A stretch of DNA of 64,000 nt from Labrys monachus (lineage in GTDB: Bacteria; Pseudomonadota; Alphaproteobacteria; Rhizobiales; Labraceae), in contig NZ_JAUSVK010000001.1 of NCBI RefSeq assembly GCF_030814655.1, positions 2,809,501 through 2,873,500 of the forward strand, given 5' to 3'. Each line of letters opens with the position of its first letter. Position 1 is the stretch's first letter. Positions 1 through 37,851 of the stretch are shown here, piece after piece. A model generated the notes under the pieces. That model searched no databases, was not told where the DNA came from, and worked only from the letters and a program-made list of their open reading frames with translations. Position numbers and translations under genes: made by a program.

Positions 1-114
1 CCGCGGTCGGCGGGTTTGGCACCGGCGGCTGTCAGGAGCGGAGGATAGGGGGCTGCCGGGCAGCGGGTCTTGCCTGTCGATGTATGATCGTTTGGTGCAG
101 CATGCATTCGGGCG

Positions 115-146
115 GGAGAAGCGGCGCCGTCAGACGTCGCTTCTCC
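115..146 (-). terminator. Hairpin downstream of the rpiB operon
   Basis: A perfect 9-bp inverted repeat (GGAGAAGCG and CGCTTCTCC) encloses a 14-base loop about 25 bases past the rpiB stop codon. No T-run follows it on the minus strand, so it may be an inefficient or Rho-assisted terminator, or only an RNA-stabilising hairpin. The rest of bases 1-170 shows no gene I can support. Confidence 0.35.
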
Positions 147-170
147 TGGGGCGAGAGCGGATCTCTCGAT

Positions 171-620
171 TCAGCCCTGCTTGCCGTATTTCTCGTCGAG
201 CTTGTTGACCGCGTGCACATTGGCCGCGGAAGCGCCCTGCGGATCGAAATCCGAGGCGAGGAACGTGTCGACGATCGCCTTGGCGAGCTCGGGGCCGACG
301 ACGCGCGCGCCCATGGTGATGATCTGGGCGTTGTTGGACTTGGCGGCGCGCTCGGCCGAATAGGTGTCGTGCGTCTGTGCGGCGCGGATGCCCGGCACCT
401 TGTTGGCGGACATGGCGACGCCGATGCCGGTGCCGCAGAACAGGATGGCGCGCTCATGCTCGCCGGCGGCGACGGCGGTGGCGACGCGGTCGGCGACATC
501 GGCATAGAAGCCGGTGACGCTCAGGTCCTCGACGGTGACGTCGGCGCGGTTCTTCAAATGGGCGGCGATCACGTCGAGCAGGGGCTTGCCGGCGCCGTCG
601 GCTCCAAGGGCGATCTTCAT
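171..620 (-). CDS. rpiB: RpiB/LacAB-family isomerase, DerI/EryI-like (tetrulose 4-phosphate isomerase)
   Basis: The 149-residue protein is a cytoplasmic aldose-ketose phosphate isomerase of the RpiB fold. The catalytic cysteine lies in the FCGTGIG motif (C62). The N-terminal motif reads GADGAG, so the histidine that follows the aspartate in ribose 5-phosphate isomerase B (CDH) is absent. That change, and stretches such as [19 protein letters not shown], match what I recall of Brucella EryI and mycobacterial DerI, which convert D-erythrulose 4-phosphate to D-erythrose 4-phosphate. It is the last gene of a leftward operon with an FGGY kinase and a GlpD-like dehydrogenase, which supports a tetritol role rather than a pentose role. 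The ATG has a GGAGAA ribosome site. The family is certain; the substrate is inferred. Confidence 0.88.
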
Positions 621-36721: not shown

Positions 36722-37786
36722 TCAGTCGCCGCGCCCGTTGCGGTTGGTGAAGCGGGCATTGCCGAGCCCGGTGCCGATCGTGACGACGCCCCAATGCTCG
36801 ACGTCCTGCATGAACGGGATCTGGGACAGGCCCTGCACGACGCCGTCATTGTGCACGATGACGAAGGTCTCATGCTTGCCGATGGAGGGAATGGCGTTCG
36901 TCAGTTCCTGCGGCAGATTGAAACGCTCGCTTTCCCAATTGCCGCCCGGCAGGTTCTGGCCGCCGCGGGCGATCGAGCCGTCGGGCTCGACGATGCCGGG
37001 GCAGGCGACGCCGATGACGGGGGCGAGGCCGAACTTTTCCTTTTCCGCATGGGCGATCAGCTTCTTCAGCATGCCCGCCAGGCGCTCGACGGTCGCCCCG
37101 CGTGCCGGCGCGTCGTCCGAATGGCGCCAAAGTTCGGATTTCCACACCCTCGCCTTCGACAGGTCGCGCTTGTCCTTCAGCCGCGTCTCGACGATGCCCG
37201 CCCGGATGTTGGTGCCGCCGATGTCGACCGCCACGATGCCGTCATAGCCATCGAGCATCCAGGCCGGCATTAGATGGGCGGCGCCGATGAGGCCGGCCTC
37301 GTCGGGATGATGGACGATCGGCACCAGTTCGATCGATACGCCCTCGGCCTTCATCAGGATCATCGCGCGGGCAATGGCGAGCTCGCCGAATTCGCTCTCC
37401 TTCATGCCGCCGCCGACGACGATGCGCGCCGTATTCTTCCAGCTGGCCTCCTTGAGGAAACGGCGCAGGACATGCGCGAGATCGCCGGCGAAATCGTCGA
37501 CGGCGCTCATCACCAGGGCTGCGGCCTGCTTGTCCTCGCCATTGAGGTATTCGTCGATCTGCCGGGTGGACAGTTCCTTCGTCGCGGTGTCGCCGAGCGG
37601 GTCTTCGCCGCCCTTGCGGACCCGCTTGCGCCAATCCTCCAGCTTCTCGCGAAAGGCCGACTTGCTCGCCCGGTCGCCGATGAAGCCGTTTCTGTCCCGG
37701 ATCTCCAGATTGTAGCTGTCGATGATCACCGAGGGCAACGACATGGCGCCGTGCCCGACGAGAGCCCCGCTTTCCTGCTTCTCCAT
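36722..37786 (-). CDS. ROK-family sugar-kinase-like protein with circularly permuted motif order
   Basis: The 354-residue protein contains all ROK-kinase motifs but in permuted order. The normally C-terminal elements come first: VVGGGM at 123-128 and DEAGLIGAAHL at 162-172. The normally N-terminal lobe follows: phosphate-1 motif VAVDIGGTNIRAG at 185-197, VACPG at 260-264, catalytic-type aspartate in VHNDG (D314) and phosphate-2 motif IGTGLG at 337-342, only 12 residues from the C-terminus. The CXCG zinc motif of many ROK proteins was not found. It probably binds ATP and may phosphorylate a hexose. AAAGGAAG precedes ATG 37786. A perfect EcfG promoter lies 41 bases upstream, so it is a stress gene. 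Its substrate is unknown. Confidence 0.85.
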   Translation of the reverse strand: MEKQESGALVGHGAMSLPSVIIDSYNLEIRDRNGFIGDRASKSAFREKLEDWRKRVRKGGEDPLGDTATKELSTRQIDEYLNGEDKQAAALVMSAVDDFAGDLAHVLRRFLKEASWKNTARIVVGGGMKESEFGELAIARAMILMKAEGVSIELVPIVHHPDEAGLIGAAHLMPAWMLDGYDGIVAVDIGGTNIRAGIVETRLKDKRDLSKARVWKSELWRHSDDAPARGATVERLAGMLKKLIAHAEKEKFGLAPVIGVACPGIVEPDGSIARGGQNLPGGNWESERFNLPQELTNAIPSIGKHETFVIVHNDGVVQGLSQIPFMQDVEHWGVVTIGTGLGNARFTNRNGRGD

Positions 37787-37826
37787 GGCTTCCTTTACCT
37801 GCCTCCCCACTGCGGGCCTCGCATCA

Positions 37827-37851
37827 ACGTCGCCCTGCCGGCAAAGTTCCG
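37827..37851 (-). promoter_or_regulatory. EcfG-type general stress promoter of the ROK-type gene
   Basis: On the minus strand GGAAC (37851-37847) and CGTT (37830-37827) are 16 bases apart, a perfect consensus match. It lies 41 bases before the ROK-type start codon, the best-placed of the four EcfG sites in this window. Confidence 0.78.

Follow-up and report, generated by a model that had tools for sequence, protein, structure and literature searches.

A probable ROK-fold hexokinase with circularly permuted halves, conserved in rhizobia and their relatives and preceded by an EcfG-type promoter motif

Overview of the kinase gene and its motifs

The window examined in this study, a stretch of 64,000 nucleotides from the genome of Labrys monachus, carries a gene (Table 1) whose product is most likely an active, stress-induced and naturally circularly permuted ROK hexokinase. 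The circular permutation is supported by the rotation of the protein against ROK profiles, by the way its halves match complementary parts of common ROK chains and by the fixation of the swapped order in the family. These results agree with the proposal of the first-pass annotation that the ordinary C-terminus is joined to the ordinary N-terminus and that the chain is opened after the GTG motif. We place considerable confidence in the explanation as a whole, i.e., a permuted sugar kinase of the ROK fold (actin-like, ASKHA) that is probably transcribed by EcfG and perhaps has a stress-sugar role. The protein is best regarded as a new, permuted form of the ROK kind, conserved in rhizobia and their relatives.

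Table 1 Features of the permuted kinase gene in the 64,000-nucleotide window
Feature	Position in the window	Strand	Basis
EcfG-type promoter motif (EcfG, general stress sigma factor), GGAAC-N16-CGTT, exact, 39 bases before the ATG	37826..37850	minus	motif search
Permuted ROK-fold kinase gene, 354 aa	36722..37786 (stop codon included)	minus	ORF, translation, PF00480 match, relatives
First segment, residues 12-177 (start about 12, end about 177)	37256..37753	minus	PF00480 profile 179-292; half-model alignment
VVGGGM, residues 123-128	37403..37420	minus	G125, G126 and G127 in 116/116 rows
DEAGLIGAAHL, residues 162-172, ordinary C-terminal helix	37271..37303	minus	D162 in 115/116, G168 in 116/116
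Second segment, residues 178-349	36740..37255	minus	PF00480 profile 2-140; model alignment
DIGGTN, residues 188-193	37208..37225	minus	D188, G190, G191 and N193 in 116/116
HND, residues 312-314, predicted catalytic base D314	36845..36853	minus	each residue in 116/116
GTGLG, residues 338-342	36761..36775	minus	115/116, one gap; chain end 12 residues further

The start codon is the ATG at 37786, directly preceded on its 5' side by AAAGGAAG, according to the list of open reading frames and the letters themselves. The first segment spans the GH motif to the last helix and corresponds to the C-terminal part of ordinary ROK proteins; the second runs from DIGGTN through the GTGLG hairpin and corresponds to their N-terminal part. 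We take the glycines of VVGGGM to be the adenosine (nucleotide) loop, DIGGTN the phosphate-1 loop found at the ordinary ROK N-terminus, and GTGLG the phosphate-2 loop; D314 of the HND motif is presumably the catalytic base, a role carried over from the ROK family. The translation further contains CPG at residues 262-264 and HNDG at residues 312-315, and GGG, DIGGT, CPG, HND and GTG each occur only once. The motif positions and single copies given in the first-pass annotation, with GTGLG 12 residues before the stop, are thus confirmed on the translation. In ordinary ROK proteins the linear order is small lobe, GTG, GH/zinc region, GGG and C-terminal helix. Likewise, in the ROK proteins of the same genome DIGGTN, CPG, HNDG and GTGLG precede the C-terminal motifs, whereas the window protein shows the opposite. 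The linear motif order that marks members of PF00480 is therefore swapped in the window gene, which makes it a permuted variant and not an ordinary ROK member.

Rotation of the protein against ROK profiles

The PF00480 profile recognizes the window protein (E 2.6e-9; 37.4 bits against a cut-off of 22.9) in two stretches that follow each other in swapped profile order, the better of which places residues 185-347 on profile positions 2-140. When the halves are taken separately, residues 1-175 match positions 179-292 (E 0.001, 19.1 bits) and residues 176-354 match positions 2-141 (E 7.6e-5, 22.8 bits), so that the curated cut-off is reached by the protein as a whole and by neither half alone. In addition, residues 74-172 match the C-terminal part of the NF047821 model. 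Rotation of the protein yields a single PF00480 stretch, with residues 4-347 on positions 2-292 of 294; the total barely shifts (38.4 bits), because HMMER sums both stretches. Local profile-profile alignment was therefore taken as the sharper test.

For this purpose, a 40-row alignment of the family was compared with 32 ROK-type open frames, picked from 36 loci of the own genome and other alphaproteobacterial genomes. The family rows derive from 117 loci (the window gene being present twice), reduced to 44 by similarity, of which L065, L095, L106 and L119 failed the junction pattern. In native order the alignment extends over 143 columns (E 3.3e-10), and after rotation at the true junction over 290 columns (E 7.6e-16). 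Rotation at four wrong junctions, 60 or 120 residues away, gave 160 to 249 columns, with E values from 4.7e-12 to 2.4e-9. A scan of 30 junctions has its maximum at residue 181 (score 119.4, 279 columns), compared to a score of 79.4 and 137 columns at the native start.

Sequence-profile searches of the PDB gave weak results, namely one match for the rotated profile (E 0.0071) and two for the native profile (E 0.0015). A whole-genome Pfam search of the own genome for ROK proteins returned 12 matches, among which the window gene is absent, though the protein passes the cut-off in hmmscan. Stretch-wise profile searches can thus miss permuted genes, and the window gene is an example.

Structural models of the whole protein and its first half

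An AlphaFold2 model of the whole protein, built with 22 family sequences, is confident (mean pLDDT 87.7, pTM 0.87), with values below 50 at residues 1-8 and 352-354; the DEAGLIGAAHL region is modelled as a helix spanning residues 161-172. When the chain order is kept, alignments of this model to PDB entries mostly extend over a single half. The N-terminal halves of ROK kinases are matched by residues 180-349, as in 2yhy (405..554; Z 13.8, 147 aligned, rmsd 1.8), and by residues 181..349 in 1woq_A (11..161; Z 11.1, 145 aligned, rmsd 2.1, 26% identity). Foldseek matches of the whole model at E < 0.001 also include exopolyphosphatases, MreB and Hsp70, as expected from the wider actin-like fold.

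The first 177 residues folded alone gave a model of lower confidence (pLDDT 74, pTM 0.71), with residues 1-26 and 163-177 mostly below 50. Foldseek alone found no match to this half model under E 0.001. In a second look with VIA-align, the top 18 places were occupied by ROK-type entries, as judged by title or recall, led by 3r8e (model 16..162 on 122..288; Z 8.7, 135 aligned, rmsd 3.1). Three of these 18 rows have an rmsd above 7, and the Z values of 6 to 9 are modest; their weight derives from the fact that the expected part of the expected family is matched. The ranges covered by the second and first segments, respectively, are complementary in 3r8e (0..145 and 122..288), 5nck_A (1..144 and 123..274) and 2gup_A (1..135 and 133..270). 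Aligned separately, the two segments therefore fall on complementary parts of the same ROK chains. Nothing in these separate alignments showed the misfit to a single ROK monomer that would have spoken against the first-pass annotation. Its further premise, that the N-terminal half is a ROK piece and not an unrelated domain, is likewise upheld by the PF00480 match to positions 179-292, by the ROK matches of the half model and by the gain on rotation.

Distribution of the family and fixation of the swapped order

The permuted kinase is a fixed family. A scan of GTDB species genomes for close relatives found 149 stretches that encode one; the best 80 of these 149 were kept, all of which align from residue 12 or before to residue 348 or beyond. 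The order GGG, DIGGTN, HND, GTGLG is present in 115 of 116 aligned loci, these 80 relatives included; in the 116-locus counts the window gene is counted once (the duplicate L094 or L089 was removed). The sole exception is L101, whose open frame as used contains no GTGLG and which carries an in-frame TAG.

Whole-genome searches covered the class and the phylum, in samples of 385, 398, 289 and 299 genomes that overlap. The family alignments A1 and A3 were built from 22 of 81 sequences, and A2 from 6. Searched with the family profile, 16 of 385 class genomes have full-length permuted matches, two of them with an in-frame TAG; these two copies, L101 (genome G122) and L106 (genome G351), reflect decay or sequencing error. 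In the phylum sample, full-length permuted matches occur in 22 of 398 genomes, five of which fall outside the class (families f194 and f197), and 25 further genomes show weak matches only, inside the N-lobe part of the profile. Among 72,556 plasmid records, 207 match and 204 contain most of the query, mostly in Rhizobium and Sinorhizobium. Homologues are present on pSymB of Sinorhizobium meliloti 1021 (positions 477077-478117) and in Rhizobium johnstonii 3841. The earlier guess that rhizobial homologues share the permutation is borne out by the close relatives and by the plasmid copies. Annotated copies are mostly named "ROK family protein", and some "hypothetical protein". In viral contigs, 15 stretches fit a pattern, none of which is a relative.

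An unpermuted orthologue or a tandem-duplication intermediate was sought with the rotated profile A2 in 289 class and 299 phylum genomes, and none was seen among the candidates scored (at most seven and six per genome, respectively, taken from a first look, so that a distant unpermuted orthologue could escape). The strong A2 matches, in 12 class and 16 phylum genomes, are every one split in the permuted order; the other matching genomes, one in the class sample and 15 in the phylum sample, have E values of 1.7e-5 to 9.6e-4 and match mostly the N-lobe. One genome, G560, contains two full copies together with a short N-terminal fragment (profile 3-34; G560:C151:167219-167314), about 3.6 kb from a full copy. 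This arrangement is no clear duplication intermediate. Of the 46 rows in a quick tree, the 12 permuted ones group as a single clade (SH-aLRT 100), which is consistent with one permutation event.

Active-site conservation

Across the 116 aligned rows, that of the window gene included, G125-G127, D188, G190, G191, N193, P263, G264, N278, W284, H312, N313 and D314 are invariant. G338-T339-G340 is kept in 115 rows, with one gap, as are H12 (the His of the GH motif) and D38. The ROK motif set, comprising the DxGGT loop, the Asp of ND, the GTG loop and the GGG loop, is therefore present in invariant or nearly invariant form; by analogy with ROK kinases, we presume that the phosphate loops, the catalytic base and the nucleotide loop are among these residues. 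Since these elements are conserved, phosphotransfer by the permuted kinase is likely. A Glu at residue 9, corresponding to that of the ExGH motif, occurs in just one of the 116 rows, and the CxCG zinc motif (CxCGxxGCxE in the classical branch) in none. The sugar site would therefore be altered, and may even be lost.

The tails that follow GTGLGN vary from 7 to 45 residues in 115 members. In 63 of these they reach at least 20 residues and are highly charged, with means of 40% Lys+Arg and 21% Asp+Glu (e.g., L045, L047, L066 and other Bradyrhizobium loci); the tail of the window copy is short.

The window protein thus shares with PF00480 ROK kinases, such as the N-acetylmannosamine kinase 2yhy/2yhw, the putative sugar kinase 3r8e and the glucokinase of S. 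griseus (3vgk), the pieces of the fold, the phosphate loops, the catalytic Asp and the adenosine loop. It differs from them in its swapped halves, in the lack of the zinc motif and the ExGH Glu, and in its new chain ends beside the GTG hairpin. Its score with the ROK glucokinase model TIGR00744 is 27.5 bits, compared to a cut-off of 260.35.

Promoter motif and gene neighbourhood

The EcfG-type promoter that had been described as perfect is indeed exact (Table 1), and the motif recurs in relatives. The window contains three exact GGAAC-N15-18-CGTT sequences against 1.24 expected, and since 12 of 100 shuffles are as rich, the motif is weak by itself and draws its strength from the relatives. Within 250 bases before the H12 codon, 23 of 116 loci have the motif (spacer of 16 or 17) in exact form and 97 have it once up to one mismatch is tolerated, compared to 0.25 and 5.6 expected from mononucleotide shuffles; these counts are not independent trials, because the loci are related and many are from Bradyrhizobium. 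With spacers of 15-18, the exact motif occurs in 24 of 117 upstream regions (the window gene counted twice), versus 83 of 5850 stretches drawn at random from these loci. Between the two boxes, the spacer sequence is not the same in Phyllobacterium, Sinorhizobium, Shinella, Chelatococcus and Bradyrhizobium. Forms with one mismatch include CATT in Shinella and GAAAC or GCAAC in most Bradyrhizobium loci. No motif within one mismatch was found in 19 of the 116 loci; these are the three out-of-class loci L123-L125 (family f194) and 16 more.

In the available portion of a study of S. melonis, the EcfG motif is given as GGAAC-N17-20-GTT, and GCAAC boxes are present among EcfG-dependent genes (PMC6599016); the word ROK is absent from the main texts of that paper and of PMC3892343. 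The window gene shares GGAAC-N16-CGTT directly upstream with the genes of alphaproteobacterial EcfG regulons, a likeness at the level of sequence. In alphaproteobacteria the permuted kinase is probably transcribed by EcfG.

In the window, the kinase gene and an amino-acid ABC transporter operon point towards each other (convergent), and a 5-formyltetrahydrofolate cyclo-ligase-like gene points away on the other side (divergent); both neighbours were named by eye. Comparison of neighbours in 35 loci, in 30 of which the family gene was called, shows that they vary beyond close kin. The only neighbour that recurs beyond single groups is a divergent otsB gene (trehalose-phosphatase) in Rhizobiaceae. 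It is annotated beside the permuted kinase in Rhizobium laguerreae, in one cluster with L008, L009 and L119, which belongs to a seven-locus cluster, mostly of Shinella. Divergent otsB genes lie upstream at L209:5074-5853 and in L007, L008, L009, L029, L048, L049 and L119. In 63 Bradyrhizobium-type loci, a ribosomal-protein-like gene (by eye) is located upstream. Because otsB adjoins the gene in Rhizobium and Shinella and trehalose synthesis is a reported output of EcfG (available portion of PMC6599016), we tentatively favour a stress-induced hexokinase that would act near trehalose turnover.

Alternative explanations and parent lineage

The chance that the swapped order is an artefact of assembly, a frameshift or a pseudogene is negligible: nothing in the window copy suggests it, the in-frame stops being confined to two of the 16 class-genome copies. 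We rejected it, as the order recurs in 115 of 116 loci, from many genomes and plasmids, and the window frame is unbroken. It is very improbable, too, that half a ROK protein has been joined to an unrelated N-terminal domain, even though the model of the N-terminal half is of moderate confidence and residues 1-150 give no ROK match in phmmer against the PDB. The match of residues 1-175 to PF00480 (below the curated cut-off), the ROK-type entries in the 18 best structural rows of the half model, the gain in alignment on rotation and the junction scan led us to reject this as well. A permuted ROK fold that has no kinase role and serves as a stress sensor of sugar or nucleotide, or binds a partner (a pseudokinase), has somewhat more in its favour and is still improbable. 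ROK proteins are often regulators, the ExGH Glu and the zinc motif are lost, and the charged tails that many members carry next to the active-site hairpin, up to 45 residues long, could hold a partner. On the other hand, a non-catalytic role would not demand the invariance of D314, the phosphate-1 loop and GGG in all 116 rows, or of GTG in 115, and Pfam shows no DNA-binding domain in the window protein.

Within the preferred reading of an active permuted kinase, the enzyme could be a polyphosphate- or dual-donor glucokinase, of the PPGK or glucomannokinase type (NF045942; 1woq), a special case that we consider unlikely, albeit less so than the pseudokinase. PPGK-type ROKs lack the zinc motif, as do the window protein and the PPGK-like protein of the own genome (L090/L156), in which the segment ELAHHP...YIGDAAREK may resemble HGA...FIGDRASK by eye. 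The quick tree joins the permuted clade to the PPGK-like rows with an SH-aLRT of 88, and the longer tails of the family are rich in Lys and Arg. Yet the tree program flags this join as a meeting of long branches, the tail of the window copy is short, and the permuted window protein scores 19.3 bits with the NF045942 model, far below its equivalog cut-off of 250. Polyphosphate is a possible donor. The own-genome PPGK-like kinase at L090:3346-4306, which has the normal order and no zinc motif, lies beside a glucoamylase-like frame (by eye).

Proposed mechanism and significance

In the active permuted kinase that we favour, a short linker (approximately residues 173-182) would connect the ordinary C-terminal helix to the ordinary first strand, and the new chain ends would lie in the loop that ordinarily joins the GTG phosphate-2 hairpin to the GH motif. 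The models suggest that both pieces refold into one ROK monomer, in which case the usual reaction should survive, with D314 acting as the base while a hydroxyl of the sugar receives the phosphate. In alphaproteobacteria, where the promoter motif is observed, EcfG would probably transcribe the gene, and the enzyme may perhaps phosphorylate hexose freed by the turnover of stress sugars such as trehalose, as the adjacent otsB genes hint.

Enzymes that have undergone circular permutation in nature are uncommon. In the portion of the literature covered, which takes in few of the subscription journals, we found no account of a permuted ROK or other actin-fold sugar kinase. The phrase "natural circular permut" was absent among the matches listed for the literature on permutation, and the papers that combine permutation wording with ROK or sugar kinase concern other subjects in the parts available. 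A bolder proposal, which we offer tentatively and would not yet expect to hold in full, is that among actin-fold (ROK/ASKHA) sugar kinases this is the first known case of natural circular permutation. It would be active and fixed as a clade in alphaproteobacteria and in several further classes of the phylum, its chain ends shifted to the rim of the active site and its tails (Lys-rich in many members) and former ExGH loop freed for a new substrate or donor, possibly polyphosphate, in the service of the general stress response.

Because homologues exist on pSymB of S. meliloti 1021 and in R. johnstonii 3841, the structure, folding and function of the family are testable now. An ancient enzyme fold has seemingly been reopened by nature at another place and then kept; if the link to stress holds, a sugar-phosphorylating step would be added to the general stress response.
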